Source: Ulota crispa (Eukaryota; Streptophyta; Bryopsida; Orthotrichales; Orthotrichaceae). From it: a stretch of 64,000 nt of DNA. The translations under genes and the position numbers were made by a program. Below the pieces are notes generated by a model. The model was not told the origin of the DNA. It made no database searches and saw only the letters and a list, made by a program, of their open reading frames with translations. Positions within the stretch are counted from its first letter, which is position 1. Every line of letters begins with the position of its first letter. Shown one piece after another: positions 1,479 through 58,533 of the stretch. Location: positions 30,032,002 through 30,096,001 of the forward strand of contig OY987242.1 in assembly GCA_963920765.1 (NCBI GenBank), given 5' to 3'.

Positions 1479-2470
1479 AACACCATATTCATTAACCCCT
1501 AAAGGACCACTTGTCTCTACGGGGGACAAATGAGATTTCAGGCATGTACTTATGGCTAAACTACTTTGAGTAATTTTTTGAAACTTTTATGGAAGATGGA
1601 GATGGAATTCAAAGATCTGTGTGGGCATCTAAATTTTCCTCATTCTGAAATTTATTGAAGAAGTTAAAAATGAATTGATGAGAATTTTTGTTTGGCAGGC
1701 AACCCAGAATTTTCTTTAAAAATTGCATTTTTTAAAAATAAAAAATTTGAGGTTAGTTCTTTAGACTTATGTATATGTAGGAAGCTTTGATTCATTCAAT
1801 CCTAATTGATGAGATAAAAGTTATGAGAAGTTTTAATTTGCGGGTAGATGTGGAAAATCTCAAAACTATGCCTACACGCAAACAAAAACTTCTCATAACT
1901 TTCATCTCATCAATTAGAATTGAATGATTCAAAGCTTCCCACATGTACGTAACTCTAAAGAACTAACCTCAAATTTTTATTTTTAAAAAATGCAATTTTT
2001 AAAGAAAATTCTGGGTTGCCTGCCAAACAAAAATTCTCATCAATTCATTTTTAACTTCTTCAATAAATTTCAGAATGAGGAAAATTTAGATGCCCACACA
2101 AATCTTTGAATTCCATCTCCACCTTCCATAAAAGATTCTAAAAATTACACAAAGTAGTTTAGCCATAAGTACATGCTCAAAATCCCATTTGTCCCCCATA
2201 GGGACAAGTGGTCCTTTACGGATTAAATTGGGTAAAAGGGAGGTACCTTTTTGTACTCCACCTTAAACGCAAAAAATTATCTTAAATCATATTCAAAGGT
2301 ATCAAATTCTGTCTGAGCCATTAAAAAAATTTCCCTCACAAATTCCTCCTCTCAAGTGAGGGCACGTATACCCAAAAAAGAGCTGCAAGCTCATCAATTT
2401 TAGGTGATCACCTGAAACATTCAGAAATTCCAAAATGTACTCTTTTTCCCAATTCAACAAATATGGGCTT
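1479..2470. mobile_element. AACACC-family element (copy H1), split by a TTAA foldback
   Basis: The left end AACACCATATTCATTAA lies at 1479-1495 and the right end TTTTTCCCAATTC...ATATGGGCTT at about 2444-2470. Removing the inserted 1496-2226 segment leaves about 260 bp, the usual size of this family, and restores the family sequence ATTCATTAAATTGGG. Flanking 4-mers are ATGA and AAGA, a degraded 4-bp duplication. No coding capacity. Confidence 0.75.
1496..2222. mobile_element. TTAA-flanked foldback element, ~720 bp class (E1)
   Basis: The whole element is an inverted repeat: arm 1496-1858 pairs with arm 1866-2222 around a loop of a few bases. Eight mismatches appear in the first 61 bases of the arms. 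TTAA stands at 1492-1495 and at 2223-2226. It interrupts the AACACC-family element at a TTAA of that host, so the duplication of TTAA can be read directly. A transcript would form a hairpin of about 350 bp. No transposase frame. Confidence 0.85.
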
Positions 2471-2686
2471 AAGAGCTTTGAAGTGGCATTTTGCAAGTTG
2501 TTATTGCACAAGTCAAATGAAGCAAAAAGGTTTGGTCAATAACACCATGGCAACTATTGAGCCTATTCAAGAAAAAAAGAGGAAGAACTATTAGTCTCAC
2601 TCAAAACTCCTTGTAGTCTCACACCCTCACTTTGGACGGCCTCAACCTTGTATCAAGAACTAAATTAGCTTTTTGTGTGAGCTTGT

Positions 2687-2940
2687 AACACAATATTCAT
2701 TAATTTGGGAAACGGCAATTCCCAATTTATATGTCTTCTTAATTTGAAACTCTCATCTTAATCTTGTTTGGCACACATGTGAGAAAACAACTGATACTTT
2801 ACAGATACTTTACAAATGACAGATGTCTAGATCTGAATTAGTCACAAAGAAGTGGAAATAAAATGGTCATGGCATGAAATGAAAATGTGGCCAAAAGTCC
2901 CAAAATGTGCTGGAATTCCCAAATTAATGAATATCGTGTT
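2687..2940. mobile_element. AACACC-family element (H2), intact, 254 bp
   Basis: Left end AACACAATATTCATTAATTT at 2687 and the inverse at the right, ending ATATCGTGTT at 2940. TTGT stands on both sides (2683-2686 and 2941-2944), a perfect 4-bp target-site duplication. Non-coding. Confidence 0.85.
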
Positions 2941-2944
2941 TTGT

Positions 2945-4913
2945 TGTGTCAACCCCGCATGCCAACAAGTTCCTCACTTAGTAGAAGGACAATTGGGTCC
3001 CTCCCATCTAAATAAATCCAACACTCTATCCACAAGAACCTACTAATGCAACCTATAATCTTTTTATAATTCTCGTATGCAATCTTATCATTGAGGCTAC
3101 TCTAACATTGCAATTGGCATTTCCATCTACAAGAAAATTCCAACTTGTTGAATTGCAGCATGTAAAAGGAAATACTTGGAAAGCCTTGAATATTTTAAGC
3201 AAACAAATTGGAGAAATTTGGCTTTAGGAGTGAGTCTCTATTTTTGTTTAACATTTAATTCTTAAATAAAATCTCACATTCTTAACACCAAAATTTTTTA
3301 AAAATTTGACAATACAAACATTTATAAGTGAACTAGCACTCACTACAAGGACATACTGTAGATTAAGTCACAATCTTTATCAACTTTTTGTAGATTTGAC
3401 CATGGTTTCCTTGTAGTGACTTTAGATAGAATGTGTAACATTAAGACCTCATTTTCAACTCTGAATCAATTGGACTATGAGAGTTTACTGGGACTTGGGA
3501 CGTAATGTGAATCACCCTTATTTCATGAGCATACTGTGATATTAGACAGGGAGTCCAGCCAATTCAGCAGTTCTTCTGTGGAGTCAATGTCACTGTACTT
3601 TCACAAGTGCTTGGGTCTAGGTTCAAGTCTTAGGGTAATTTAACGAAGTAAACGCAAGTTTTCTAGAAAAAAAAAACTCATGTTTATTGGACATCGTCAA
3701 GAATTGTGCTATAGCGACCAAAATGCAAAACCAAATCCGGAAAACTTTGACCAACCATATTCTCCAAGCAATTCTCCAAGCAAAATAAAAGAGTGAGTGA
3801 AGAAAAGAAACAGCGATGTGAACTTGAAAGAGGAAAACAATTGCAAAAACTTGGAAAACCTGATGGGACTGATAGTATTTTCTCATTAGTTGGTATGTCT
3901 CACAAAGGCCAAGAGTACCTTACGGTTTCCATTTTTTTTGGTGAGAGTCTACTTTCTACAACAACTCTACTTAACTCTTAAATGCCCAAGACATCAAATT
4001 TTGGTGTTCAAATTTTTAGGAAATTTTGAAACCCTGTTGAAGGCATAGCTTTTATTGTTTTAAAGTTTTTTTTTTGAGAAGTTGCGGATTGAAGTTAGCT
4101 TTAGCATTTAGTTTTAGTTTCTTCCATACTTTATTCCAATTTTTTAAATGGAAGCCAAATTGCAAGCATACTTTTTGTGTCATTAATAGTGTCATGAATA
4201 GTGTCATGAATAGTGTCAAAGAGCCTATGACAAGTTGCCACATTGAAAAGCTGAGTAGCAAGTTGAAAATAAAGTGAAGATTTCCCTTGGGCACTCCCTT
4301 TGGCAGTGAGGGCCCTTTCATTGAAATTTTGTCATCTAACAAAATCTAAAAGTACTTTTGGACTAATTTCACATGGAATGTCTTTTTTTTATAGAAATCA
4401 TAATTCATTCCTTATTGAATTTTCATTCATTCATAATGATTTTTGGTCAATACTTGAAGTTGAAAAAATCCTTTATATTAGGCAGTCGTACTTTGACAAT
4501 TGCATTGCAAGCCCATTTGTGAAATGTGATCATAGATTTGGAAGGGGGGACATTAGTTGTCAAGTAACAACAACAAACACTAAAGTATCTTAAGTGGTTG
4601 CTTCCCAATTTTGTATCCAAAAATTGTTAATTTGCATTAGAAGTTTTGGGCATCTCCAAAAAGCAAAAAATTCCATACTCACCCACATTCAATCACAAAT
4701 ACCTTAAAATACGCTTGATTGTTTTGGATTTATGAAATTTTTGAATTAAAAAAATGTCAACTCATAGTGTAGATCAATACAAAGGCATTCAATAGGTGCA
4801 CCTCTCAACCTTCTTCTAAAAATAGATCCAAAATCATTCTCCAAAGGCTCCATCATATTGTAATTACATTGAATCACATTCAATAGATAAACTCATCCTT
4901 AATATTGCTTTTA
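2945..4913. other. Intergenic AT-rich DNA, no gene recognised
   Basis: Contains a 78-bp mini-CACTA (annotated separately), a doubled TTCTCCAAGCAA near 3761-3781 and a short tandem run of GAATAGTGTCAT units near 4185-4220. The overlapping frames around 4052-4342 are composed of simple AT-rich and repeat sequence. No gene seen. Confidence 0.5.
3341..3418. mobile_element. Mini-CACTA element, 78 bp
   Basis: Starts CACTACAAGGA and ends TTTCCTTGTAGTG, the terminal inverted repeat typical of plant CACTA (En/Spm) transposons. ACT lies immediately outside both ends (3338-3340 and 3419-3421), which fits the 3-bp target duplication of this superfamily. It is far too short to encode anything. Confidence 0.85.
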
Positions 4914-5324
4914 GGGAATTGATATGTGCACATTGGGGGTTGATATTTGCACACTGCCTGGGAATTAAACTATATATTTTGACCATCAAAAAGCTGAATT
5001 TGAGAAATTTGAATTTAGATTTGGACTAAGAGATCATAGTTTACTCCAGAACCATAAAAAGAAGTTGCAATTCAAGACCACCCATTGAAACAACTTAGCT
5101 AGGGGAAAAAGTATTACTTTTATTTTTGTTTGCAAAAAAATATAAGTTTCTTCATTTAGTGTTGTTCATTTACAACCTTTTTTTATGGTTCTAGAGTAAA
5201 CCACGGTCTCTAAGTCTAAATCTGAATTCCAATTTCTCAAATTTAACTTTTCAATGGTAAAAATCTATAATTTACCTCCCAGAGGTGTGCAAATATCAAC
5301 CTCGGCGTGCACAGATCAATTCCC
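4914..5324. mobile_element. Foldback element, GGGAATTGAT-ended family (G1)
   Basis: About 410 bp, bounded by GGGAATTGATATGTGCAC and GTGCACAGATCAATTCCC. The arms are long inverted repeats: AAAAAGCTGAATTTGAGAAA and CAGATTTGGACT-type blocks at the left recur inverted at the right. The same family occurs at 62935-63341 and, more diverged, at 34901-35307. Non-coding; a transcript would be a hairpin. Confidence 0.8.
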
Positions 5325-5615
5325 TATTTTTATCATAGGAATATTTTGTAAAAATAATACTAAATATCAATACCATCAAGCAGGGATTAGGTACATTGAA
5401 TATTCTAGTTTGTGGATCCAAGGGGTGGAAACGTTAGATTTTCCTACAAATAAGGAAAAAGGTGAAAAAACGAATTTAAAATTGGAGTTTCCACAAATGT
5501 CCACAAACTAGTATGTCTCAAATTAGATTATTAGTCCCAAATGCAATTTTTGTAATTAGCCTAATCGACAAACTGAAGATACTACTAAATGCTTGTGCTA
5601 GAAATATATATTTAA

Positions 5616-6552
5616 CCCCTAAAGGCTCTTGACTATGTTCTCATCAAAACTGCCCTAAAACTATCATTTGTGGTACAAGTATCAGATTTTAGATAAAAAT
5701 TCTATTTGGACACATCTAATCATAAGATCTTGTAGTACACTAGTATTCAAATATGTGGAAAAAAATTTAGAGATTTTTGCCATGTGGATGGTTAGGTGAT
5801 TGAGTTTGAATTGACAAAAAGTTGTTTTTTGTCCCTGCAAAAATTTGGGCAGCTGCACTTCACAAGGTCATATTTGTATGAAAAAAGTTTCAAAATGGTT
5901 GTAATTATTATTTTTAATTCTTCAAGGCAAGCCAGGTGCACACTTGAAAAATTTCAAATCATTTGAAAATGTATAACACATAGGAAAAACATAGTAAGTA
6001 AAAAGATGTAGAGAATGATACAAAACACTAAATTTTTAAGAATTTAATTATGAAAAACAAAAATTCCAATTCCAATGGTCAAAATATTCTAATAAACAAT
6101 CTACATACTTGGGCTTTACTTTTTTTTCCAAAATAGTAAAAATTGAGTAAAACATAGGACTTAAAAGTTTTTTTTAGAGTAGGGAATCCATAACTGCTTG
6201 CAAACAGAATCTCCTCACAACTTTCATCTCCTTGATGAAAATTGAAGGATTCAAAGCTTCCCAAGGATATACATATCTAAAGAACCTATTTCAAAAAACA
6301 AAATTCAAAAAATGTAATTTTTAAAAAAGTTTTTTGAGCTGCCTGGGCTGCCCCTAGAATAAAGAAAACTACATATCATGCAATAACTTTTGAACCATGA
6401 AGTCAAAAGTTATGAAATTTGTTGGGCCTTAAAGCTACTCCTTGGACACATCATGTGTGAAAATTTCAAAGAAAAAAATGAAAAATCTATTTGTATTGAG
6501 CTGCCCAAAATTGCTATTTTGCCAAAAAAACACTGTTTGGGCCTTTTAGGGG
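5616..6552. mobile_element. TTAA-flanked element, ~930 bp class (E5)
   Basis: TTAA at 5612-5615 followed by CCCCTAAAGG; GGCCTTTTAGGGG followed by TTAA at 6553-6556. Its 937 bp match the size class of five other elements here. The interior shares blocks with the element at 13161-14340, for example GTAGAGAATGA, CAAAACACTAAAT and ATTCAAAGCTTCCCA. No transposase frame. Confidence 0.75.
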
Positions 6553-6988
6553 TTAATATTATGTTATTTTTGTAACACTAAAAGTGTTTTGAAATAAGAT
6601 TTTCTTAATTTAGGTTGCTATGCGCTACGAGTTAAGAACATTTTGCAATTGGGGCTGCTTGAATTCCTAACTTCTCATTGATTGATTTAATAAAAAAGTA
6701 CCCCAAGACCTTTACACAACGGGAGGCAAGGTCAAAATTTTAGAACACATCTTATAGTTTAGTAGAAAAGTTTTGACAAGGCTTAAACTTCAAGGATTGG
6801 GTCTGTACCCAAACTAGAAGGTGAATTCATAACCCTGGGGCCATTGTCATGTTTTACCAGAATATAATTATTTGACTGAAAAAAAATCATTTAGGACAGT
6901 CAACATTTTAGGATGTAAGAGCAATATTAACAAGTCTACAACGCCATATTTGTTAATCTGGGAAGAAACCCTGATTTTTGGAGTTTAA

Positions 6989-7935
6989 CCCCAAAAGGCC
7001 CAAGTGGTCCCATTGGGGCCAAGTGGGGTTTTGGGCATGTACCTATAGCTATACTATTTTATGTAATTTTTTGAAACCTTTATTGAAGGTGGGCAATTCA
7101 AAGGTCTACGTGGGCATCTAAGTTTTTCTTCATTATGACACTTATTGAAGAAGTTATGCATGAATAACTGAAAAACAAGGAAGAAGCGGGCAACCCAAAA
7201 AAAAGTTTGTGTTTTTTTAAACAAAAATCTGAAATTGGTTCTTTAGATTTTTATGTAATTGGAAAGCTTTGAATCATTCCATTTTGATTGATGAGATGAA
7301 AGTTATGAGAAGATTTAGTTTGCGGGTAGGTATGGGACTCCCAAACCTCCATTCTTTCTGCTCCTTGTAAAATTTGTTGCTTTATTTTTTTGAGCTCTTT
7401 GTATTTTTATTTTTTTGACTTTTTTTTTTCCAAGTTGTAGTAGACTAATATTCCTTGGTTTTGACCATTTCAAACAAAGTAATTCAGATTTCTGAATTTT
7501 ACATAAATTCTCCAATTTTGCCTAGTGTATATGCCATTTTCATGGCCTTATAGCATTGCAGGATTTTACAAAGTATGATTCACAACTCCAGTTCATTTGA
7601 AAATTCTCGCATACATACCTAACTTGGTTTTCTACATGGGAAAAAAAACCTCAAATTTGCGTAGAGTCATTTTTTTAATATAGGAGTGGTCAAAGGCTTC
7701 TAAAATTTTTGGGCAACAAGGAAATAAACTTTTTTATTCACTTCAGATATCAATATCGCACTCCTTTACATCTAAAATGAGATGATTTTTTTCCCACAAG
7801 TACCTCCCATAGTCTAGGGTAAGATTTTATGGTTGGATTTTTGAAAAAAAGATTTTTCCTACCATTTTACTTATTCCCCCAAAAGTGGCAGTTTTCAGTG
7901 ACTTTCACAGAAAAAAGGGCTTGGGCCTTTAGGGG
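6989..7935. mobile_element. TTAA-flanked element, ~930 bp class (E3)
   Basis: 947 bp between TTAA at 6985-6988 and 7936-7939. The left part resembles the arm of the 720-bp foldbacks (GGGACAA/GGGGCCAAGTGG, then GGGCATGTACCTATAG). The right part is a different module ending in CAGAAAAAAGGGCTTGGGCC. Same family as 13161-14340, 14352-16218, 17581-19798 and 55702-56894. Non-coding. Confidence 0.85.
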
Positions 7936-7953
7936 TTAAGGTAACCACCTTAA

Positions 7954-8600
7954 CCCCTCACCGCCTAAGGGGACCAAAACTGTCCATCCTGCATTTTCAT
8001 TTGGAATTTTTTTACTTTTCTTGAAGATTCATTTTAGCGGTTATTTTTTTTAATTATTCTTACTGAAGTCTTTTTTTAGTATCAAAAATTCAATTTTGAA
8101 AATGAATAACTATGATTTTTCTATTCAAGATTTTGTGCAAGGGTGTCCACTGCAAATCTTCACATTCTAGTGTTGAGAGCTCTTGGAAATGAGCCTAAAG
8201 TACACTAGAACTTGGAGAATCAGTCAGATTAGAAACTTAATTTAAAAAGTTGTAAAGTAGATTTTAAGAAGCTGTAAATTGATTAGGGTTATAAATTTTG
8301 TACTTTGCATCTTCATTTTTTTTTGATATCCTTAATTTTAAATTTGAAATGTGAAAAGAGGATTGAAAGACTTCAAACCACTTTCACAGTTTCAACACCC
8401 ACATGATCAAATCTTATAATCTTTCAATCCATAAGTGATATTGTTGTGTTTTCTTTTCCTATGTGATCTCTAACACGTCTAGTTCAAATTTGTACGGTTA
8501 CAGTTTTTTCTAAAATGATGCAACTTATCAAAATGTTGCTATTCTATTCATCCAAGAGCAGATTGTGAGATAGTCAAGAACGTCTGTGGGCGGTGAGGGG
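7954..8600 (+). mobile_element. TTAA-flanked element, ~650 bp class (E4)
   Basis: 647 bp beginning CCCCTCACCGCC and ending GGGCGGTGAGGGG, with TTAA at 7950-7953 and 8601-8604. It contains AAGGGTGTCCACTGCAAATC, which is found inverted in the copies at 12499-13156 and 41954-42599. Not a foldback; only the outer ~13 bases are inverted. Non-coding. Confidence 0.85.
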
Positions 8601-8677
8601 TTAAACCAAGCTCTAGATGTAAGGTGAGTACAACTTGGGAATCTGGTTTTCCCAATTTAATGAATATGGCGTTCTAC

Positions 8678-12494: not shown

Positions 12495-12498
12495 TTAA

Positions 12499-13156
12499 CC
12501 CCTAAATGCCCAAGCCCTCTCCCTCTCTGAGCTTCTTAGACTTTCTATGAAACTAAACAATCGATCAACTTCTTCATGAATTCCATCAAGTTTTTTTCAA
12601 TTGTAATTGTACGAATTTAAATTAAACATGTTAGAGGTCTAACATTACATGGAAAAAGAAAACACAACAGTATCACTTATAGTTTGAAAGATTTTAATGT
12701 TTGAACATGAGGGTGTTAAAACTGCAAAAGTGACTTAAAGTCTTCCAATCCTCGTTTCACATGTCAAATCCAAAAAGTTGGTCACCATAAAAATATGAGG
12801 TTTAAGGTCATTACATGCCTAACTCAAATCAATTTATGGTTTTGAAATTCTACTCCTACATTATTTTTAAATGGATTTCTAATGTGGATTTTTCTCCAAG
12901 CTCTAGTGTATTTGAGGCTCATTTTCAAGATGTTCCAAAACTAGAAAACTCAAGATTGCAGTGGACACCCTTGTACAAAATCTCAAGTAGAAAAATCCTC
13001 AACTTTCATATTCAAAATCAGATTTTTGATGTTGAAAGTAGACTTCAAAACAAACTTATATTGAAAATAAAAAATTGAAAATAATAATTTGATGAGGTTT
13101 TATCCATCTTCAAAGTTTCCCCGCAACCCAAATCTGGTCGGTTGGGCATTTAGGGG
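12499..13156 (-). mobile_element. TTAA-flanked element, ~650 bp class (E6)
   Basis: 658 bp between TTAA at 12495-12498 and 13157-13160. It is an inverted copy of the element at 7954-8600, with GTGGACACCCTTGTACAAAA, CATGAGGGTGTTAAAACTGC and TCTCCAAGCTCTAGTGTA as shared blocks. It shares its right TTAA with the next element, so the two are joined end to end. Non-coding. Confidence 0.85.
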
Positions 13157-13160
13157 TTAA

Positions 13161-14340
13161 CCCCTCAAGGATAAACCTGTTTTTCTACCAAAATCACTAA
13201 AAATTGCCACTTTTAGAAGGTTTAGAAAAAAGGGATTTTATATTTTGTTTATGGTAAATTCAACTATAGGATCTTGCCTCAGACTAGAAAAAACTCGATA
13301 TTTGTTAATTTGGGAAAAATAGGTGTCCTACTTTGCATTCCACTTGAAACCCAAAAGTTACTTTAAACCAGATTAGAAGGTATCAGATTTAGTCTAAGCC
13401 AGTAAGATTTTTTCCCTTGCAAATTCCTCCTCTCAAATGAGGACACATGCAAATTTTAGGAGGCCACCTAAAACCTTCATACAAAATTCTGAAAGTCCCA
13501 AAATGTACAATTTTTCCCAAATTAATGAATATCAGGTTAAGAGGTATTTGTGGAAAAAAATCAGCTCATTCCAAATGAAGAAGAGTGAGATATTTACATC
13601 CAAAGTGAAAGGAAAGGTTTTTTCCATGCTGCCCAAAATTTTCAGAAGCCTTTGACCAATCTTATAACAAAAAAATTTCTCTATCCAAAGTTGCGCTTTA
13701 TTTTTTTCATGAAGGAATTCAAGTTAGGTATGTGTGGGAGAATTTTCAAATCAATTGGAACTATGCAACACATGGGAAAAAATAGAAAGTAAAAAGAAGT
13801 AGAGTATGAGTCAAAACACTAAATTGTTAAGAATTTAATTGTGGAAATGAAAAATGCTAATCCCAACAGTGATAATGTTGTGATCAACAATCTACTTCCT
13901 TGGGGGTTTTTTATTTTCCAAAATATTGAAAATTGAGTAAAATAAAGGACTTCAAAGTTTATTTTAGAGTAGAGATTCCACAATTGCCTGCAAACAAAAA
14001 CTCCTCATAACTTTCATGTCATTGATTGCAATTGAATGATTCAAAGCTTCTCATGAATAAAAAAATCTAAAGAACCAATTTCAAATTTGTATTTTTTTTA
14101 TAAAAAAATAAATAAAGAAGTTTTTGGGCTGCCCGGATGGGCAGTCCTCTTCAAGTTTTCATAAATTCATGCATATCTTCTTCATCAAACCTTGGAATGA
14201 AGAAAAAATTAGATGCCCACATAGATCTTTGAATTCCCCACCTTCCATAAAACTTTCAAAAAATGACACAAAGTAGTTTTGCCATAGGTACATGCCCGAT
14301 GTCCAACTTGTCCCCCAAAGGGACAATGGTCCTTTTGAGG
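13161..14340 (+). mobile_element. TTAA-flanked element, ~930 bp class (E7), with nested H4
   Basis: TTAA at 13157-13160 and 14341-14344. Left module has CACTAAAAATTGCCACTTTT; right module ends in the 720-bp foldback arm (ACTTGTCCCCCAAAGGGACA). Subtracting the nested AACACC element (13292-13538) and a 4-bp duplication leaves about 929 bp, matching the class. Non-coding. Confidence 0.85.
13292..13538. mobile_element. AACACC-family element (H4) nested in a TTAA element
   Basis: Ends AACTCGATATTTGTTAATTT and AAATTAATGAATATCAGGTT. Flanking 4-mers AAAA and AAGA are a near-duplication. The surrounding sequence resumes the family order seen at 7690-7830 (GACTAGAAA, then AGGTATTTGTGGGAAA-type sequence). 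247 bp, non-coding. Confidence 0.75.
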
Positions 14341-14351
14341 TTAAGTCTTAA

Positions 14352-16218
14352 TCCCTAAAGGTCCAAGTGGCCCCTTGGGGTCAAGTGGGGTTTTGGGCAT
14401 GTACTTATAGCTAATCTACTTTGTGTGATTGTCTAAGTTTTTTATGAAAGATGGGGAATTCAAAGATTTGCGTGGGCATCTAATTTTCTCCTCATCTTGA
14501 CATTTTTTGAAGAAGTCATGCATGAATTTATAAAAAACAAGGGAGGGTGAATAGCCCAAAAACCTTTTTTAAAATGGCTTTTTTTAAAATAAAAATATGA
14601 AATTGGTTTTTTAGACTTATATATATGTGGAAAGCTTTGAATCATTCAGTTTTTTTTTATGAGTGAGAAGTTTTAGTTTGCAGGTATGGGACTCCCAAAC
14701 CTCCATTCCTTTTGCTCCTTGTAAAATTTGGTGCTTTATTATTTTGAGCTCTTTGTGTATTTGTATTTTGACTCTTATTTTCCTCTAGGTTGTAGTAGAC
14801 TAAGATTCTTGGGTTTTTACCATTTTGATTAAAGTAATTCAGATTTTTGAATTTTACATAAATTCTCCAATTTTGCCTAGTGTAAATGTAAATTTTATGG
14901 CCTTATGGCATTGCAAGATTTTACAAAGTATGATTCACACTTCCAATTCATTTGAAAATTCTCCCACACTTACTTAACTTGATCTTCTACATGGGAAAAA
15001 TAAACCTCAACTTTGTATAGAGCAATTCTTTTGATATAGGAGCAATTAACCCCTAAATCCCTAAGTGTCCCCTCTAGAGACAAATGGAATTTTGGGCAGG
15101 TACCTATAGCCTCAATTTTTGTCCTAATTTTTTGAAACTCTTTTTGAAGATAGAAAAACACATTAGCTTTTGGGGAATATAACTTTTATTCCAATCTATG
15201 CCTAAAAGCAAAAGTTATGCCTAGATAAGCAAAAATTTACGAAGATCCGACAAAAATTATTTTTTTACAAAAACTTTTTTTTCTTTTTCTGATTTTTTTT
15301 TTCTTATAGGTTATAGTATTTTCTACATTAGAAGCTTTGATTCATTCCATTTGGACTAGTTATGAGAAAGTTATGGACAATCTTTATTTTTTGGGCACCT
15401 CAAGCATCTTCTTGAAAAAATAACTTGTAAACTTCATTTTTGAATGTAATTTTAACATTTTTTCAAAAAAATTGCTGGAAAGGGTAAAGTTTGCTTTCTA
15501 GAACAATTTTTTTATTGGGATTATTGCACATCAATTCCATGGCAGGATTATTAACAATATAAGATTTTGTTCAGTCTCATACCTTCTTCTACCTAATGTT
15601 TTATTTAAGAATGAAAATCATGTATTTTTTGTTTTGATTTTTTTCCAAAGATTCTCAACTTAACTTCCCACCATGAAAAAATAAACCCCAAAATTTTGTG
15701 GTGCAAAAAATTTAAGTTGAAAAAGTTCAAAGTCAAATAATCTAGTCATGCAAGGTGCAAATTTTTTTGTTTTTGACACTTAAAACTCAAATAACTTGCA
15801 AACTGTGATGTCAAAGTTTTTGAATTTTTGTTTCCTCATTCCTACACTGGTCTAGTATAAGATCCTATAGTTAGATAGGCAAAAAGACTAATTTCAAATA
15901 TTTTACTCTTTGCAATAGAAATGGTAATTTTGAGTGTCTTTTTACAAAATAAAGGCCTCAGAAATTTAGGGGTTAAAGGCTTTTGAAATTTTTGGGCAGC
16001 AAGGGAAAAGACTTGTTTTTTTCACTTCAGATGTCAATATCTCACCTCTCTACACCTAGAATGAGCTGATATTTTTCCCACAAGTACCTCCCAAAGTCAA
16101 GGGCAAGACCTTCCAATTGGATTTCCAAAAAAACTTATTTTCCTACATTTCTACTCATTCCCCCAAAATTGGCAATTTTCAATGATTTTCACAAAAAAAA
16201 GTCTCGGGCCTTTAGAAG
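14352..16218 (-). mobile_element. TTAA-flanked element, ~930 bp class (E8), with nested E9
   Basis: TTAA at 14348-14351 and 16219-16222. Same order as the element at 6989-7935, including TATGGGACTCCCAAACCTCC and GCTCCTTGTAAAATTTG. Removing the nested element at 15050-15972 with one TTAA leaves about 940 bp. Non-coding. Confidence 0.85.
15050..15972 (-). mobile_element. Nested TTAA-flanked element (E9), 923 bp
   Basis: TTAA at 15046-15049 and 15973-15976. Left: CCCCTAAATCCCTAAGTGTC; right: CAGAAATTTAGGGG. The host reads GATATAGGAGCAA before it and AGGCTTTTGAAATTTTTGGG after it. The relative at about 7677-7712 reads continuously through that junction (AATATAGGAGTGGTCAAAGG), which shows this is an insertion at TTAA. 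Non-coding. Confidence 0.85.
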
Positions 16219-16222
16219 TTAA

Positions 16223-17245: not shown

Positions 17246-17580
17246 TACAAATCAAGTTAATGTGATTCAAATCAACAAAACAATAATTGCATTCCGTATG
17301 ATGCAAAGTTTGCTTGGTTGGAAAAACAAAGTGACACAAATTTATGAGAGAGTATTGTATTGTACAATTTCCAAAAGAAAGTATAAGTAAGTTTTTTTTT
17401 TTGCATTCAAAGAAGTTGGTGTAACAAAGAATATAATTGGCATTTGGTCCTCATATGTTTTGAATTTGATCCTTGTGCAATCCTAGCCAAGCATACCAAA
17501 TTCAGCTACTGATAACCAAAATTCTATTTTTGATTAATCATTTTAATTAAAATTCAAGATTTTACATAATTACTGATTAA

Positions 17581-42603: not shown

Positions 42604-44841
42604 ACAGCTTATGGCCTATGGGGTCTAGGGCTTTTTTTTTGGCTTTTTGGTGCCAGATTGCACCAAAAAAAATAGTTTGTCTAGAAAATGCCAAAAAACT
42701 TGGATGAAATTCCCAAAAGGCTTCAATTTTTTTTTAAATTGGATAAAATTGCCAAATTATGGATGAAAATCAAATTATAAACATGTAATATGTACTAATG
42801 TGATAATTTTTATCCAATATGTGGATGAATGTTGAAATTTGGAGCACCACTATAACATTTTAAATCGCCACTTTTGCACTTCTTAAAAAATGAAAAAAAT
42901 CCCTTGTTGGGGTCCTCTTTCAAAAAATCACACTACTTTCACGCATCGTTTTTTTGATTGACAAATTTTTGCCTAAATCTTACCTCAAAATCCTTGTAGC
43001 TCCCACTTCACTAAAAAATTAGGTTCAAAAAGTAGATGAAATTGCTAGATGTCTCCTTGAGCAAACATACAATTTGCCAAGCTTTTGGATGAAAGTAGCT
43101 TATATTGGTAAACTTGTTGGATGAACAAGCACAAATCATTCATTTGTTCCAATAATTGCCAATTTTTCCTTACATGTGCGCTTTCTAAGGTGCAAGTTGC
43201 TCTAACTTGGCAAAAACATAAAAAAAACATGTGAACTTTTCATATGTGTGCCAAAATCTTTAAAATTAGTATGGTTCTTAGTAAACATTTAATTTCATTT
43301 ATAATAAAAATAAATAAATAACTCAAAATTAATCATATTTCGTTCATCAAGATTTGAGTTTATGGTCATATGCCTAGGTATTTCAAGGGTAGATACTAAC
43401 TTATCCTTTGTTCCAAAATTGTGAAGGAGGGCAAGCATGCTGAAATGAACCATGAAGCTCAATTTCTTATAAATAAAAATCCACTTTTTACTTAGATACA
43501 AAGTCGTTGCAAATATTAGTATAGGAAAATGTCTCAATTCTTTCTGTTTTTCATGCTTGGCTTTTGTTATGGTTTGAACAGTAAAGAGATGGAAACTTCC
43601 CACATTCGTAAGTCATAATTTATCACTCAAGTTAGTGAAGCAAATTTTTTTATAAATTAAGTTTTTATTGTTGGCTTCAAAATTCGTAGAAAATATACAC
43701 AATGGTTTTAGAAAACTTTGGCAACCAATAATTCGATGAGTATATAAAACGTGTAAGCTTATTAAGAAAGTGATAGCTTTAACTTTTCTATTCAAATAAT
43801 GTTATATTTGATTTTTGTAACCGAATTCTCTAATTGACTAAGCTTGATGCATAACAAATCAATGCCTAAGATCAAAGTTTCTAAATTGGATATTGCATTC
43901 TCCGGAACAAAGCATGCTTTTGTTTAAAGTCACTGCAAGATCGGCTATCAGACCACTTTATTCTTTTAAGATCTGAACTCCTTAAAAATTCTTTAAGTTA
44001 TATCCAAGCATTTCAACATATGTACTGTTATGATAACTTTCTTGTCCTTATAGATTGCCAAGATAAATATTACCTTTCTATTATTCAAGGATTCCTCTAT
44101 AATGCTTATGTGAACACAAAATGACTACTCTTATTTGAAAATGGTTTGGCATAGAGTGTCTTACTTTTGCTAGACAAGTTCATTGCAAGGCTCCATAACC
44201 TAACATTATTTCATACTTGTTGATAGACCTAAGATTTCATAATCTCTTACATGTTTTTATCCTAGATCTTAGTTCCAAAATTTTGAGACAAAAGATCCCA
44301 AATTTGTACTAGTGGATGCCCAAGTTTTGGTAAACAATTATTCTCCAAATTCTCTCATAATCTTCTCCCATCAACTTCCACATATGGTCCATTGCATTTG
44401 AAAAATAAAAAATAATGTAATCTTAGAATGACATTCTTTAAAATCCAAATTCTAACGGTCTTGGTCTAGTTTGTGGGGCCTCAAGACTCTTTTCTAGTTT
44501 TCTATTAGGAGCTTCTCTAGCTTTGCACTGGCAGGGTTTGACACATGCCAAGTTCGGATGATAAGTGCTCGGGGCCCATCAAAATTCTCTCATGGCACTT
44601 CATTCTAGTGTGTCAAAACAATGACCCTTCAAAAATTTATTCATCCTAACTTTAGTGAGCTTTATCCTATATTCCCTTTGATGGATGGTCAAATGACTAA
44701 TTATGGGGCATGCTTGGAGTGCAAGGACCATGTTTGAAGTGCATGGCTAGAGAGCAAAACATTTGAGGGCCCTTCAAAAATAGATGTAATGATTGTAATC
44801 TCTTGAAGTGTCAAGTTTGAAGTGCAAGGCTAGTGATGCTC
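42604..44841. other. Intergenic AT-rich DNA, contains repeat R copy 2
   Basis: Repeat R (see 24511-24787) recurs at 42973-43230. The remainder (43240-44841) is AT-rich with short frames only, no gene supported. Confidence 0.5.
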
Positions 44842-45298
44842 TTAGAGCATCATTAGTATGCACACTGCGAATGGGACTTGGAAGTAGCCGGTCGTGCGTT
44901 GCTCCCCACCCCTTAAGTATTCAGTTTCTTTCACCGGCTGGATCCTCCCAATGTTGATGCAACTCCAATCAAAGTTTCAAGCACGGTAGTAGAAGAATGT
45001 AAGCACTTGCAAGTTGTTGTTGGGAAATTGCAGGCTATTGCAAGCTATTGTAAGCCATCACAAGCAATGTGTCACTCTGTCAACAAATGCAATGCGCACA
45101 AGGAAAACAAATTGGGTCATGGGAAAATGAAACAATATGCCACTTTAGGAGGTGGTTTTAATGGGGTTAGATTTGGCATTTCTGTTCCAGTGGCAACGTT
45201 GAAACCCTAAAAGTACCTATACTTCCCGTTAAAATGGCCCCCACCCAGAGAAATGGAGGACTAGCCCATTCCCAGTGCACACATTGATGATGCTCTTA
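44842..45298 (+). mobile_element. MITE, GAGCATCAT-ended family, copy 2
   Basis: TTAGAGCATCATTAGTATGC at the left and CACATTGATGATGCTCTTA at the right: a terminal inverted repeat. Inverted relative to 461-892; shared GGCTGGATCCTCCCAATGTT and AAGCACGGTAGTAGAAGAAT. Ends shortly before the HTATSF1 upstream region. Non-coding. Confidence 0.8.
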
Positions 45299-47013
45299 TA
45301 TTACATGAATTTTTCGAATTGGTTTCCTTTTTTCTTCTTTCAGCTGCCCGTACTGCCCAGAAGCTCGGTCAGGTCGTCTCTCTCAGCGGAGCTCGACGAG
45401 GAACTCCGCTGCAACCAAGCAAGCAAGCGCGAGTGCAGATGTTACGTTGCTGTGGAAATCGAAATCGAGGAACACACGCTCATCACACTTGAATCTCCAG
45501 GTCAGTTTCTTCGTCAATTCGTCTTTCTTCGCTACCGAATCTCCTGCTTTTCGCTGTCGATTGACGTCTTTCGCAAACATCAAGACCCTCTCAGATTGAC
45601 AAACCTCGGATCCGTCGCCAACGATCGTTATGGTGGATGTGTGCAATCGCCGAGGGTCACTGTCCGAAAACCGTAGCTTAATAAGTCATCTGCCGCATCA
45701 TAACGTAGGCCTAAACCTTTGTTCAGGATGAAGACGGGCTTACGTGGTCGAGGGTTTATGGTCCGAGGTTTTTCCAAAGAGGCCTCGATTAGGGTTAGGG
45801 TTTGGGAACAGGTCAGCTGCTCTTGAGTAGGATTTCGGAGTGCCATTCAACAACTGTATAGGTCACTTCTCATTTACCTTAACTTGGTGAACACGAGTCT
45901 TGAGATTTTTCCGAAGGTATGAGTAGAGTTCGCCAGTAGAAATCTTACGTAGTACATCAGAGTGTAGATTGAACTACCAAATAATTCGGACCATATTTTG
46001 TTTTTTGTGCTGGAAGTCTTGACTTATTCGTTTGTTTGTGTATGCTTATGTGTTGCCATTGTCTTTGTATGTAGGTTCTAATGTATTCATGGAGGCAACT
46101 CAGCTTCTTCAATTCAGATGTATTTTGATGCGAGAATATTTTGAGTTTGGAGGTACGTAATTTTGAAGTGATCACGTAATCATTGGATGTCAATCAAGGG
46201 TAATATTGTAGCTTCAGTCTAAAGCTTTTGTATCCGTCAACTTATCTCACAATTTTGCGCCAGGTTTTGTTTCTTGTGGTCGGGGTTTAATTTCGGTTGT
46301 TCTCAAGTCGGAGGTCATTTTCAAAAACTTGCACTTATTGATGATCACCTTTCAGATTATATTGATTACATGGATGCTATTTGCATTTCTTTTAAGTATT
46401 TTAACCAGTATGTAGGAGTATGCTTTCATTGGGAGGTCACTTTAGAACTGTGGAGAGATCACTTTGACACTACAAGAGTTACGTCTGTTGAGATCGAAAT
46501 TTTGCCATTTTGAACTAATATTTTATGCAATCTCGAAGTAGGATTTTGTAGACCAGTGGTCAGAGAAATTCAGCCTAGTATTAGTTGCACCACAAGCTAA
46601 CAAGTCCAACCAAGTATACGGATATATGATTTCATGTTGGTCCCAGGGGCCAATATATGGGATTGGATCAGGGTTTTTACGGTACTAGTGTTCACTATCT
46701 TATTTTTCTGGTTGAGGGTTTCACTCTGAGGATTCAGTCAGGTTTCACATACGTTATCATTTATTTTATGTTGTGGTTTGAGTCCGCAGGAACTTTGGTG
46801 TTGTCAAATATTTAATATGATTAGGCTTTGCAGTTGTTGACCTTGTCGAGGAGAAGAACTTTAATATAATTCTAGTGGGGTTTCTGCAGTTTATGTCGCT
46901 CCTTTCTGCGTGTCACGAAATACTGGTGAGAACGACGTGGAATTCGTGTAACGAACCGTGAGTAACCAATCGACGGCCACTCAATCTCTGGACCTGGCGA
47001 ATAGATACCAGTG
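45299..47013 (+). promoter_or_regulatory. Promoter and probable 5' leader of the HTATSF1-like gene
   Basis: A GC-richer block at 45340-45850 holds TTAGGGTTAGGGTTT (45789-45803, telo-box type). TCTCCAG|GTCAGTTTCT at about 45499 looks like a splice donor and TTTCTGCAG at 46881-46889 like an acceptor, so a 5' untranslated intron of about 1.4 kb is possible. A 133-codon frame (45275-45676) starts inside the MITE and has no domain; I do not treat it as a gene. This is inference. Confidence 0.4.
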
Positions 47014-50000
47014 ATGGATCAGAGCAGCGAAGACCTGGGCACAAATGGCCAGGCAGCAGCAGCAGCTACAACGGATGCGGATGACGACTATTTACGATGG
47101 CAAGAAGAGATACGTCTTGCTGAGGAAGAGGCAGAAGCCATGAAAGCTGGCAAGTTACACAGATACCACAAGGACTTTCGCAAGCAAGTTGAATTTGCAG
47201 AGGAGCCTGCTGCTTTGGCTGCGGTTGAAGAGGAGCCTGTTGTGGAAGCAAGCGTTCCAGAAGTTGAGACAGAGTTCACTGATGATGATGGAACTGTGTA
47301 CGAATGGGACCCTCATCGCAATGCTTGGATTCCACTGGCAAGTTTTGAATAAATCCTCTACCTGTGCTATGTGCAACCAACACCATATTAGTTAAATTGG
47401 GAAAAACGGAGGGACCATTTTGTGCTCCACCTTAATCTTACATACAATTAATGTAGGCATAGCTATAGCTCAAAGTTGTAATTATTTGAAATTCTTGGAG
47501 GTAATCATTGAGATTTCACTATTGTACAAGAAAGTGCACGCTTATTCTTTTGTAATTTGCTAAATTGTACATAATGACAGAAATACTGAAAGTCCCAAAA
47601 TGTATTGATTTTCCCACTTTATCTAATATGGTGTTAACCTCTTCTTAGGGTGTTTTGTACCTAGTTGCCCTATTAGAGTGCTGATGGTTGGGCTCCACCT
47701 TCTGTACTCTGCATCTGGTAACTTGAGTGTCTATGTGATGCTCTCTTTCAAGAATGAAGTTGGTATGCCCGCTGTTTTTATAGTAACAGTCGGAATTATG
47801 CAGGAGGGCGTTGTCGAGCTACCTGCCTATGGAGCGGATGATATGACATTTGTACAGGAGGAGGAGGTATTTCCGGTGCTTCCGGATGTGATACCTACTT
47901 TACTACCGGTACATGATGGCGATAGCGTCGATGATGAAGTTGCTGACGTTCCAGGAAAGAAAGTGGACTCCAAAGTAGGCGGTAAGCGGAAAACTGCTGA
48001 CGCAGAAGAGGCGGCACCTAAGAAGGTACTTCTTTCTTACAAATGAATAAATTTGTTGGAGTCCTTCACATTTAAGCTTACAGCGCTTGTAGATGGTGTC
48101 AGTAACAGCTCCGCGTAGCTTTTGTGAAGGAATTATGCTTTGGTTCATCTTACGGAGTAAATGAAATGCACATATCTTGTAGTGTGAAGCCGAGGGCATT
48201 GCTATTGATCTCATTATGCGACTTAGGGGGTTACCCTAGCCCGATTTCAATTCCTCATGTAATAATTGTTGGTGGTCTCATTTAGCACTTCCCTTGAAAC
48301 GCAATTGCTGCAGGTTGTGTCATAGGAAGAGATCGGTTATTTGCCCGATTTTTTGCCTGCGTGTCTTAGATTTGTTAGATGAGGTACAGGGATTCGCCAA
48401 ATTAGTACGTAGCAGCTGCTTACTGGGTTTTGCATTTGGTTGTGGTGCATAGGAGGCACAGAAGGAACCGGAAGCATGGTTTGATCTGAAGGTTAACACG
48501 CACGTGTATATCGATGGGCTCCCTGAAGATGCAACTATGGATGAGGTAAATTTTCTCTTGCAATCACATTAGGTCTGTCCTTGTTCTCTCATTCTGCATA
48601 ATCATCAAGATTTGTTCTTATAGGATCACGATTAATCGATTTGTTTTGTACAACCATGTTAACAGACTTTCAACTTATTGAAACTTCGCCTTTGTGCTAT
48701 ATTTGGGCTTGCCGCTTATGTGACTACTTGTTTTTTGTGGTTTTGTGTACAGGTTATAGAAGTTTTCTCAAAATGTGGTGTTATTAAGGAGGTTAGTCCC
48801 TCCTCCTTAATGCTCCAATGTATTTGTCTTGATCTGTTGATGTCTATACTCTGCTGATACTGTGATACTTGACACTTCGTGGCCGTATGTGATAAGATTT
48901 AAATGCTTTTCACTTTGACAGGACCCAGACACTAAGAAACTACGAATCAAACTTTACGTAGACAGAGCAACAGGCAAACAGAAAGGTGACGGTTTGGTTA
49001 CATATCTGAAGGTGAGATTTTTCTTGTCCACGTATCTCAAAGAGTGCAATCACTTCAGTGGTTTTATTAATATCAGAGACCGAATTTTAGTATTCTTTCC
49101 GTTTTGTCGATTGTTGCTACAATTGCCGTGCATACATGCTCACACTGTTTTGTGGTTTGATGCGAGCAGGAACCATCAGTGGATTTAGCATTAAGTATTT
49201 TGGACGGGACTTCTTTGAGACCTGGAGGTAGCCCAATTATGTCTGTGACGCGTGCAAAATTTGAGCAGAAAGGTATTTGTAGTATGTTTAGATACTAAAG
49301 TTCCTTTCAGGTCGCTTGTGTATTTGTTGGTTTAATCCCGATTTTTATGTCCCACTTTATCTTCTTTTTTAAGGTCTCATTTAAGTGATTTATAACTAGC
49401 TTATCAAATTTTCACGTTCATCTAGATTGGTCATGTGTCGTTTTGTAGATGATATATTAATGCCCTGGATGGTTTCCGCAGGGGAGGTGTTTATGAAGAA
49501 GCAGCAAAATAAGCAAAAGAAGAAGAAACTGAAACAACAGGAACAGAAAGCACTTGGCTGGGGTATTGATCATCTCCTTGCTTTCTGCTTTGGGTGGTAC
49601 AGCAGTGGCTATGGCACTTGTGCCTGCATGTATGCAGCGATCAATCATAACAATTGCTGTGCTCTTACTGCTTATTAGATTTTTTCTAGTGTCGCTTCCT
49701 AGTTAATGGTATCTGGCAATTAAACAGTTTTAACCAAAGAGATGGGCCTTTGTGTGCGTGTTTTTTGGAGGATTGATGTGGTTAACCATAGTACATTGTG
49801 CGAAACTTTCGTTTTTTTCCATATTCCAGTTACTTGGGTTTACTGGTTACTTTTGTTGAACTTCAGGAGGATTTGATGACAAGAAGAAGGAAGAATCTAT
49901 GACAGTGATTCTGAAGCACATGTTCACACGCTCGGAGCTCCTGGTAAGCAGGCTGACATTCATGTCATGCTCTACTAGTGTTACTCCTGCGAAGGAATAG

Positions 50001-52378: not shown

Positions 52379-52382
52379 TTAA

Positions 52383-52703
52383 CCCTTAAACGTTGGGCTG
52401 GTCACCACAACCGCTCAACAATTATAATATTGTTTCCAAAAGCTACAAAAGTCAATAGTACATGTTGATCTGAAAATTATAGAAAGGACAATATGGGACC
52501 AAAGATTGTGTTTGTGGATCTTCTCACAATTTGGGTTGCCTAAAAATATGAGTGCATTTGGTGAGGTTATTTTTTGCCTTTCATGATGCACCATGTGTTT
52601 ATGATCACTTCTAAAAAAAATCAAATAAAAAACAGCTTTTTTTGGTTGATAAAAAGTTTTTTAGAGCTAGAGGACAAAAAACATCCTCCTCAACGTTCAG
52701 GGG
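52383..52703 (+). mobile_element. TTAA-flanked element, AAACGTTGG class, 321 bp (E18)
   Basis: TTAA at 52379-52382 then CCCTTAAACGTTGGGC; CTCAACGTTCAGGGG then TTAA at 52704-52707. Shares GCATTTGGTGAGGTTATTTT with the element at 57901-58259. Non-coding. Confidence 0.85.
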
Positions 52704-52707
52704 TTAA

Positions 52708-55697: not shown

Positions 55698-55701
55698 TTA
55701 A

Positions 55702-56894
55702 CCCCTAAAGGCCCAAGCCCTTTTATCTATGAAAACCACAAAAAACTACCACTTTTGGGGAAATGAGTAGAAGAGTAGGAAAATAGTTTTTTCTTAAAAT
55801 CCAACCATAGGATCTTGCCCTAGAGGCCTAGACTATGTAAGGTACTTGTGGGAAAAATCAACTCATTCTAGATGAAGAGGAGTGAGAAATCGACATTTGA
55901 AGTGACAAAAAAAAAGTTTTTTTCCTTGCTGCTCAAAATTTCAAAAGCCTTTGACCACTCTTATAGCAAATAAATTGATCTACACAAAGTTGAGGTTTAT
56001 TTTATCTGTGTAGAAGACAAAGTTAGGTATGGGTGGGAGAATTTTCAGATTAATTGGAGGCATAAAACATACTTCAAAAAATCTTTGAATGCTCAAAGGT
56101 CTTGAAGTTTGCAAGTACATTGGGCAAAATTGGAGGATTTATATAAAATTCAGCAATTTTAATTACATTAATCTAAATGGTAAAAAACTAAGAAGTCTTA
56201 GCCTACTACAACTTGGGAACAAATTTAATCAAAAATCAATTGGTCAAACCGCTTAAAAAATTAAAGCACCAAATTTTACAAGGGGCAAAAGGAATGGAGG
56301 TTTGGGAGTCCTTCAAGATAGGCATCTTCCACTCCACCCCTTTGCCTAAGTGTCCACACCTTGTGCCCACAAGGGCTGGCCCTCTTTGCAGTCAACACCC
56401 ACTTACAAAGAAGATCTATGCCTTGTCCAAATTGCCCCTTCTTGCCTAGTTTCAAAAAATTCTTGATAACTTTTTCATCATATGTCAAAATAGCATCATA
56501 TTAATTAAATTGGGAAAAACAATATATTTTTGGGACTTTCAAAGGATTAAGGTGATCACCTTAATTTGAGCTCTAGCATTTTTTTTGGTACACATGCCCT
56601 CACCTGAGAGGAGGAATTTGGGAGGGAAATAATCTTAGTGGCTCAAACTAGATCTGATACCTTCAAATCTGGTTTAGGGTAACTTTTTGGGTTTAAGATG
56701 GAGTACAAAATGGGACCCTTGTTTTTCCCAATTTAATTAATAAGGTGTTAAATGAAGAAAAATTAGATACCTGCATAGGTTGTTAAATTCTCTACCTTCA
56801 ATAAAAGTTTTAAAAAATCACACAAACTAGTTTAGTTATAGATACATGCCTGAAATCCATTTGTCCCCCAAGGGGACAATTGGGCCTTTAGCGG
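55702..56894 (+). mobile_element. TTAA-flanked element, ~930 bp class (E12), with nested H5
   Basis: TTAA at 55698-55701 and 56895-56898. Left module: CCCCTAAAGGCCCAAGCCC and ACTACCACTTTTGGGGAAAT; right module: TTTGTCCCCCAAGGGGACAA. Subtracting the nested 258-bp element and its 4-bp duplication leaves 931 bp. Non-coding. Confidence 0.85.
56492..56749. mobile_element. AACACC-family element (H5) nested in a TTAA element
   Basis: AGCATCATATTAATTAAATT at the left and AATTTAATTAATAAGGTGTT at the right. AAAT stands on both sides (56488-56491 and 56750-56753). The central palindrome TTAAGGTGATCACCTTAA is intact here, which makes this the reference for reading the double insertion in 6940-8673. 258 bp, non-coding. 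Confidence 0.9.
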
Positions 56895-56898
56895 TTAA

Positions 56899-57447
56899 CA
56901 CCCAATGCTTAACACCCAATGTTTTATAATAGAGATTTTGAAATTTTAATGCTAATAAAGAATTTTGAATATTGCATAACATATACGCTTTGTAGTATAG
57001 ATTTGAGAGCTTTACAATGGCTACTTCTTCACTTATTTTCTCCTTGCATGGAATAACTTAACCTTTAAATGAGGGCAAGCTTTTTTTTTTTTTTTGATAT
57101 GATTGCATGATTCACAAAAAAAAAACCCAACACGTTATAGGTCTTCTCTTTAATTTTTTTTAAGCTGTATTATGTTGTGAATGTCCAATTATAAGTGGTC
57201 TCAACTCCCAAGCATTGGTACCTTTGCTTGATGCAGAAGGACCACTATTTTTCTTAGTGTAAATATGTGAACAAAAATATAGGAAATCTGAAAAATTAAG
57301 TTATAGTTTACACAACCTATACATGTTTTTAGCACTTGGAAACAAAACAAGTTAAATTTGAAATTCAAGTGTAAACCCTACTCAAATGTGGAGTTTGTAC
57401 ATATTCTCTGCCCACATTATCAGTCTAAGTAGGATTAGCCACTTTAG
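56899..57447. other. Intergenic, no gene recognised
   Basis: CACCCAATG.TTAACACCCAATG is doubled at its start (56898-56922). A 13-base T tract lies near 57083. Nothing else seen. Confidence 0.5.
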
Positions 57448-57896
57448 CCCTTAAACGTCAATGCAGACGTGTTTTGTCCAATGCATGACAAAAAAAAAAA
57501 GTCTGTTAGATGTAACTCGTAAGGTCATTTTTCATTTGTTTTTTTACAAAAGTTATTATGGAGACATGGTCCATCACGGAAGGCAAAAATCAACTTCATT
57601 GAATGCACTCATATATTTAAATATTCCATATTGTGAGAAAATTCACAAAAAATGATGTTAGATCTCATGTTACCCTTCTTGCAATTTTCATGAGGGTAAC
57701 ATTGCATGCAGATTATGCAATTTTTGAGATAGTTTTGAATTTTTTAGAGAATAGTATTGAGTTTTGTAAGCACTTTATCATACTAGTCACACCACTCTAA
57801 CAAATGGCCACCATCACAAACCCATCATTTAAGGGAGGAGTACTTTGGCAGTTTGGCATTGATATGTGCTTGATCCATAATATTGTAAACTCAATT
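57448..57896 (-). mobile_element. Partial TTAA-type element, AAACGTC class (E21)
   Basis: Begins CCCTTAAACGTCAATGCAGA after TTAG and contains CTTCTTGCAATTTTCATGAG, shared with 22412-23492. The right terminus is not convincing; it may have been lost or may lie at the next TTAA (57897-57900). Confidence 0.55.
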
Positions 57897-57900
57897 TTAA

Positions 57901-58259
57901 CCCTCAATCGCCGGGCAGGTGACTGCAGACTGCCCTCATTGTAGCTTTTATAGTGTTTTCAGAGGTGGGCACTAGTAATATTGTTTCTAAAGGTTGCAAA
58001 AGTTGATAATGTTTGCTGGTCTCATGAAAATTGCAATAAGGGCAACTTGGGACCTAACACCGTGATTTTGAATTTTCTCACAATTTTAATTACCAAAAAA
58101 TATCAATGCATTTGGTGAGATTATTTTTTGCCTTCCACTATGAATCACATATTTATGATCGCTTCTGAAAAAAATCAGATGAAAAATTGCTTTTGCCTAT
58201 AGTACAGTATATTTTTTTTAGGCCAAAGGACAAAAAACGACCTCCTTGGCGTTTTAGGG
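57901..58259 (+). mobile_element. TTAA-type element, AAACGTYG class, ~360 bp (E20)
   Basis: TTAA at 57897-57900 then CCCTCAATCGCCGGGC; right end CCTTGGCGTTTTAGGG followed by ATAAA, a changed TTAA. Shares GCATTTGGTGAGATTATTTT and TTTATGATCGCTTCTGAAAA with 52383-52703. Non-coding. Confidence 0.7.
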
Positions 58260-58303
58260 ATAAATCATGAAGAACTAGAAATTGATAAAATCTGTGCACT
58301 TAA

Positions 58304-58529
58304 CGCTTAAACGACCATAGGGCATAGTATAAACGCTAACGTATATTTGTCAATTGCTACCAATAAGAAATTTTGATATGGGATCTCAAGTAGCTCACTA
58401 GAATCACATTGATCTATTCTCCAACTTCTTTGTTGGTCTCAAATGTAGTAAAGGTGAGGATGCATTCCAAATACAAGAAAAATATCCCATATTGTACTGG
58501 TTGCAAAGAGCCTTTTGGTCGTTTAAGGG
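58304..58529 (+). mobile_element. TTAA-flanked MITE, ~225 bp (E16)
   Basis: TTAA at 58300-58303 then CGCTTAAACGACCATAGGGC; TTTGGTCGTTTAAGGG then TTAA at 58530-58533. Inverted copy of 39351-39574; both contain GATCTCAAGTAGCTCACTAG or its inverse. 226 bp, non-coding. Confidence 0.85.
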
Positions 58530-58533
58530 TTAA

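Follow-up and report, generated by a model that had tools for sequence, protein, structure and literature searches.

Results

TTAA-bounded elements in the window

We analyzed a 64,000-bp stretch of Ulota crispa DNA (assembly GCA_963920765.1, contig OY987242.1, positions 30,032,002–30,096,001 of the forward strand; hereafter the window) for short DNA elements that begin with CCC, end with GGG and lie between TTAA sites, and whose very probable kinship with piggyBac transposons is the subject of this report. When ends were examined individually, the window held 19 paired TTAA-bounded elements and one unpaired fragment (at 57444), whose union covers 14,779 of the 64,000 bp, or 23.1%. A preliminary description of this stretch, made from its letters alone, had proposed about 20 such elements occupying roughly a fifth of it; 18 of its 19 listed starts could be paired, and we add one element, 39575–39778, that was absent from its list. 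Sizes lie between about 0.2 and 2.2 kb; the longest elements are better described as non-autonomous elements than as miniature inverted-repeat transposable elements (MITEs) in the narrow sense.

The ends stand out clearly from the base composition of the window, which is 63% A+T. Twenty-seven window ends lie within two mismatches of TTAACCCCTAAAGG, a motif derived from the window itself, versus a mean of 0.5 (0 or 1 each) in 10 second-order Markov shuffles. Likewise, we found 15 inverted pairs that start with C and are bounded by TTAA or TTAG, some with a common end, where 10 shuffles gave a mean of 0.3 (0–1). TTAA flanks both sides in 17 of the 19 paired elements, the exceptions being 41950 (left TTAG) and 57897 (right TTAT, read inward). 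The preliminary description had regarded three entries (41954, 57448 and 57901) as edited versions; this holds for the MITEs 41950–42603 and 57897–58263, each paired with a mutated flank, but 57444–57700 is a truncated fragment whose right partner was not found and whose right limit is approximate. Ends at 2226, 14344, 16222 and 22408 are degraded.

Among the end classes in the window are CCCCTAAAGG, CCCCTAAATGCC, CCCCTCACCGCC, CCCCTGAGCGCC and CCCTTAAACG. Two elements are fold-back MITEs. The first, 1492–2226 (TTAA-CCCCTAAAGG class), matches its own inverse at 91% over 740 columns, that is, along its whole length. The second, 29620–30345, is self-complementary at 88% over 728 columns; its predicted folding energy as single-stranded DNA is −311.8 kcal/mol, with a z of −50 relative to 20 shuffles. 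A partnerless GGGTTAA-type end with one mismatch lies at 30473, 128 bp past this element. The CCCCTCACCGCC-class MITEs 7950–8604 and 41950–42603 are 80% identical in inverse orientation, and 6985–7939 and 55698–56898 both belong to the CCCCTAAAGGCCCAAG class. The 6985-type element 14348–16222 is interrupted by a nested one, 15046–15976; the preliminary description listed starts at 14352 and 15050 as separate elements, and both are real, but the former is a single element split by the latter.

Neighboring elements can also have a single TTAA in common. This is the case for the CCCCTAAATGCC-class MITE 12495–13160 and the weakly inverted 13157–14344 (at 13157–13160), and for the short MITEs 39347–39578 and 39575–39778 (at 39575–39578). 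The former of these two has weak inverted ends and is 81% alike over 234 positions to the short CCCTTAAACGACC-class MITE 58300–58533. The remaining elements are 5612–6556 (CCCCTAAA class, with a mosaic interior, delimited by end scan, inverted pairs and all-against-all comparison), 17577–19802 (2.2 kb, CCCCTAAAGGACCAAG class, without a recognizable transposase), 28845–29093 (a CCCCTGAGCGCC-class MITE), 22408–23496 (CCCTTAAACG class) and the short CCCTTAAACG-class MITE 52379–52707. A tandem array of 15 copies of the 7-mer TCACTAC occupies 21962–22066, about 340 bp ahead of element 22408. All-against-all comparison of the window elements revealed mosaic interiors and related families, and when nine pieces of transposase were compared with the window by tblastn, no remnant was recognizable (best E 0.35).

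Target site and empty sites

When the flanks of 15046–15976 are joined (244 bases), they align without a gap at the junction to the uninterrupted relatives at 6985 (205/244 identical) and 55698 (196/238), which hold a single 4-bp site, TCAA, where the nested element sits. In a comparison of the joined flanks of 19 elements with the window and 34 genomic loci (numbered with L), those of 15046–15976 also aligned to places in L016, L028, L010, L024 and L023. For 17577–19802, the joined flanks matched unoccupied repeats at 76–77% across the junction, twice in L023 (with a gap of one base next to the site) and three times in L027; each match has one TTAA-like site. L022 yielded two further, weaker matches. 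Empty sites are thus full-length for 15046 and 17577, short for 22408 (82 columns, 75%) and marginal and partial for 7950, while the joined flanks of the other 15 of 19 found no empty-site match in the window and the 34 loci.

Genome-wide, the exact sequence CCCCTAAAGGNCCAAG occurs 5,668 times and is directly preceded by TTAA in 4,746 cases (83.7%). This fits a 4-bp target, since the fourth base would not be constrained by a 3-bp TAA target. The window elements have a TTAA target site that is duplicated on insertion.

Abundance in the genome

The genome assembly comprises 274.8 Mb in 157 contigs. Exact TTAACCCCTAAAGG was found 7,719 + 7,692 = 15,411 times, compared to once for the reversed control, and the degenerate end TTAACCCYTNANNGNC 21,051 + 21,098 = 42,149 times, compared to 43 + 49 = 92. 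The window has 17 TTAACCCYTNANNGNC ends, the orphan at 30473 among them, and this density of 0.27/kb versus 0.15/kb for the genome indicates that the window is richer in elements than the average. By extrapolation, the genome would hold about 40,000–50,000 elements, making up approximately a tenth of it or more. As an example, the 666-bp element 12495–13160 has 40 full- or near-full-length places including itself (89–100% identity) and one partial place, in a search that scored the best 40 of 3,738 first-look candidates.

Coding elements with a piggyBac transposase

Profile searches for transposase families covered PF13843 (DDE_Tnp_1_7, the piggyBac transposase family) and PF13359 (DDE_Tnp_4, Harbinger-type). 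PF13843 has at least 120 matches in the genome, all above the curated cut-off, and none in 14 control genomes; the count is a lower bound, as 116 of 528 candidates were scored, and includes a few loci counted as two pieces. We read 26 coding loci, 20 of them mostly with few stops or high scores at 4 kb per side and six with high scores at 1.7–3.1 kb. Asp occupies the three catalytic columns in 25, 20 and 24 of 26 loci, respectively, and 23 loci have another Asp, the fourth, close by. A piece of L020 matches piggyBat (PDB 9c0f, E 1.7e-16) and piggyBac (PDB 6x67, E 3e-13), and a Cys-rich C-terminus is visible in L020. The transposases of the 26 loci are 27–83% identical in pairs, with a median of 36%.

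C-rich, inverted and TTAA-bounded pairs of ends surround the gene in 6 of 26 loci at up to 2/14 mismatches and in 13 of 26 at up to 4/14, versus 0 and 0.2 in 20 sets of shuffles, which do not model the short elements crowding this genome. We accepted paired coding elements, with 5.0–5.7 kb between their ends, in nine of the 26 loci (L016, L017, L018, L020, L021, L026, L027, L028 and L030). The pair at L032 is weak, and those at L013, L015 and L024 are doubtful, as neighboring short elements may be the source of their outer ends. At L012 (3941–5632), a piggyBac copy consists of two stop-free pieces of 164 and 309 aa with about 270 bp between them; paired ends were not found at this locus, and the copy is a candidate for an intron-bearing or domesticated gene.

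Linking short elements to coding elements

An end-anchored comparison set the 40 ends of the 20 window elements against 24 ends from 16 of the 26 coding loci. Eight of the 16 loci (L010, L017, L018, L019, L020, L023, L024 and L026) have an anchored match to a window end, and 13 of the 20 window elements have an anchored coding match. Namely, the ends of L020 and L024 match 12495 and 15046, those of L018 and L026 match 7950 and 41950 (L018 to the left end of 7950–8604 over 37 bp at 86%), and those of L010 and L026 match 28845 (L010 to its left end at 18/18). L019 (58 columns, 86%) and L023 (401 columns, 75%) match 6985, at its right end, and 55698. Many other anchored matches are short, at 15–20 bp and E up to 0.022.

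Ends and transposases vary together. A transposase tree, based on pieces and drawn without support values, largely clusters the loci by end class. The right end was usable in 18 loci, not counting the doubtful L012 and L013, and across these 18 transposase identity and end identity are correlated (Mantel r 0.48, 0/20,000 permutations); the correlation persists once three near-duplicates are removed (r 0.46, 0/20,000).

Host and neighboring genes

A LEAFY DNA-binding domain was found at one locus (L039) as two exon matches, and five weaker SAM_LFY matches lie elsewhere in the genome (L040 and four more). The second exon is identical in 104 of 106 positions to PDB 4bhk (FLORICAULA/LEAFY homolog 1), scoring 245 bits versus 109–174 for the other four LEAFY structures in PDB. 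4bhk is a Physcomitrium patens protein, and its match implies that the genome is that of a moss. The host LEAFY also carries Asp and Cys at the positions marking moss type II. According to a published account (PMC6588583), LEAFY types are defined by positions 312, 345 and 387, and members from the class Bryopsida are type II. The land-plant origin proposed in the preliminary description is therefore borne out, and the LEAFY exon narrows it to moss.

Two gene-like features lie within the window itself. At 59771–62644 on the plus strand, several open pieces make up a plant-type cytochrome P450 gene (PF00067); tandem duplications with periods of 198 and 159 at 61407–61937 overlap the end of one of its open frames and reach the next. 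At 38001–39269, also on the plus strand, an open frame of 422 aa has no Pfam match at E up to 0.1 and, judged by eye, presumably resembles plant BTB/POZ proteins.

Discussion

The window elements are very probably non-autonomous members of the piggyBac superfamily, mostly MITE-sized, in a moss nuclear genome. This reading draws on their TTAA-bounded CCC...GGG ends, empty sites with one TTAA-like site, coding relatives with similar ends and the co-variation of ends with transposases. The preliminary description had attributed the expansion to a TTAA-specific transposase, and this has held up well, given that PF13843 genes with ends like those of the window elements exist in many copies. Judging from the sequence, we propose that transposases of several co-existing piggyBac lineages recognize the short terminal repeats in trans. 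They would cut at the CCC...GGG ends, excising the elements without a footprint, and the excised elements would be pasted into TTAA, including TTAA beside earlier insertions. Insertion at a TTAA adjoining an earlier insertion would account for neighbors with one common TTAA. Copy number may in this way have climbed to tens of thousands, with most transposase matches now stop-bearing.

Several results weigh against this interpretation. An internal stop interrupts 110 of the 120 PF13843 matches; 10 are stop-free, and any activity is putative. Thirteen of the 26 coding loci have one end or none, and 16 of 26 are without a clear pair. Eight of the 16 loci compared (L011, L012, L013, L015, L016, L021, L027 and L028) have no anchored match to a window end, and none of the loci read was found to hold a complete, two-ended coding element that is the direct parent of a window element. 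Similarity between short and coding elements is limited to 15–58 bp at the ends, except for the 401 columns of L023, whose left end was not found. Coding matches to the CCCTTAAACG class are no more than modest, with 10–12 of 16 bases in the clearest ends. In addition, one-sided coding ends were selected by their likeness to TTAACCCCTA, so that their first ten bases partly reflect this choice, while the paired coding ends were located without this motif. Within the window, inverted-repeat agreement is weak at 39347 (7/16 bases), 22408 (8), 13157 (9) and 5612 (10), and the CCC-end feature is weak in the first three of these; for all four, position and homology to other elements contributed to the pairing. 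A PF13843 DDD transposase is encoded by related elements with the same ends, a relationship not seen singly for seven of the 20 window elements, which have no anchored match (13157, 22408, 39575, 52379, 57444, 57897 and 58300).

One alternative is a Tourist-like origin, in which a PIF/Harbinger transposase moves the MITEs and duplicates 3 bp (TTA/TAA) at the target. TTAA includes both TTA and TAA, and Harbinger-type PF13359 genes are abundant here, with at least 150 genome matches. However, none of the four PF13359 loci that we read (stop-free, about 3.2 kb per side) sits between two TTAA-CCC ends: at L035 a single weak end was seen, and at L038 a good end on one side only. One of the four, L037, contains a 3.6-kb PF13359 element (L037:2380–5990) with a TTA target-site duplication and GGCCCGCTTTACATATGGAG inverted ends that agree in all of the first 16 bases compared; the other three loci have no clear pair of ends. 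This sole boundable Harbinger-type element looks ordinary, unlike the window elements. Autonomous PIF/Harbinger relatives with the window's ends, or a 3-bp duplication, were what the preliminary description had named as evidence against its claim; instead, paralogous empty sites and flanks fit a 4-bp TTAA, with TTAA on both flanks in 17 of 19 window elements and before 83.7% of exact genome ends. On this sample of four loci, a Harbinger origin is very unlikely.

It is less likely still that another TTAA-specific superfamily moves the elements and that the link to piggyBac is coincidental. Sola3 and Kolobok also duplicate TTAA. Against this, in an analysis whose profile searches covered PF13843 and PF13359, pairs of CCC-type ends enclose PF13843 genes much more often than in shuffles, and their matches to window ends are class-specific. 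As for TTAA-CCC words arising from base composition or from the assembly, the A+T content of the window does make TTAA common. Such an origin was rejected on the shuffle control (27 ends versus 0.5) and the reversed-pattern controls (1 versus 15,411 and 92 versus 42,149), and with interiors that are homologous among copies we give it practically no credence.

Beyond the piggyBac assignment itself, a more tentative idea, which we consider possible though on balance doubtful, is that this moss lineage hosts a long-lived piggyBac community of many deeply diverged transposase lineages, with their short derivatives as a leading DNA-transposon fraction and with end-switching between lineages. The case in point is 12495–13160 and its relatives 41950–42603 and 7950–8604, whose cores are 54–92% identical per 50-column block while their outer 100 bp are mostly 30–60% identical (compared to 35% for a shuffled pair). 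Their end classes correspond to different branches of the transposase tree. Ends, and hence the transposase, may have been exchanged during the evolution of these three elements. The two closer relatives among them likewise diverge most near their ends, however, and gradual change is compatible with this pattern. If such a community exists, plant annotation that lacks a piggyBac class would file its elements elsewhere.

That piggyBac occurs in plants is unusual, although not unheard of. Reviews count it as one of seven angiosperm MITE superfamilies (PMC10004981) and among the superfamilies shared by all groups, including land plants (PMC4438587); the fern Ceratopteris is listed with 1,230 piggyBac copies, at 0.00% (PMC6890710), and plant piggyBac is also mentioned by PMC10794571 and PMC8086355. 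The entries in the first three sources concern the same superfamily, and none, as far as their available text goes, describes such a scale or a moss expansion. The preliminary description's phrase 'not the usual plant set' is accordingly right about how unusual piggyBac is, but reviews do list it for plants, and PIF/Harbinger-type genes are numerous here as well. A MITE survey from 2025 that covered 207 plant genomes, including four from bryophytes, treats five main superfamilies, and its accessible text lacks the word piggyBac (PMC12550479), which suggests that such elements may be misfiled; MITE content there averages 0.7–2.2% by group and reaches 6.04% in rice. Among the literature matches listed, from which subscription papers are mostly missing, we found no report of a piggyBac expansion in moss; PMC10619864 speaks of 'piggybacking', but with an unrelated meaning. 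A superfamily mostly discussed for animals and fungi emerges here as a major constituent of the genome of a moss. This genome represents a natural experiment on the joint evolution of transposase lineages and ends, and its elements could lead to a plant-adapted system with footprint-free excision.

Short TTAA-bounded derivatives reportedly occur among animal piggyBac MITEs as well, for example in Helicoverpa. The moss elements differ from these in their plant host and in having full fold-back forms and several end classes together. The Tourist MITEs of PIF/Harbinger are similarly short and of high copy number, with an AT-rich target overlapping TTA/TAA (PMC10004981), but they differ in their 3-bp duplication and their ends, as L037 demonstrates directly in this same genome. 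The closest counterparts are piggyBac of Trichoplusia ni and piggyBat of Myotis lucifugus, which share with the moss elements the TTAA target, CCC-type ends and a PF13843 DDD transposase. A published account (PMC10813416) describes a CCC start as conserved in animal piggyBac and gives piggyBac a length of 2,472 bp, compared to 5.0–5.7 kb for the moss coding elements. Unlike piggyBac and piggyBat, the moss coding elements are mostly stop-bearing, belong to many co-existing lineages and occur alongside very many short elements. The kind of element is therefore already known, whereas its scale, its host lineage and the number of co-existing transposase lineages are unusual.

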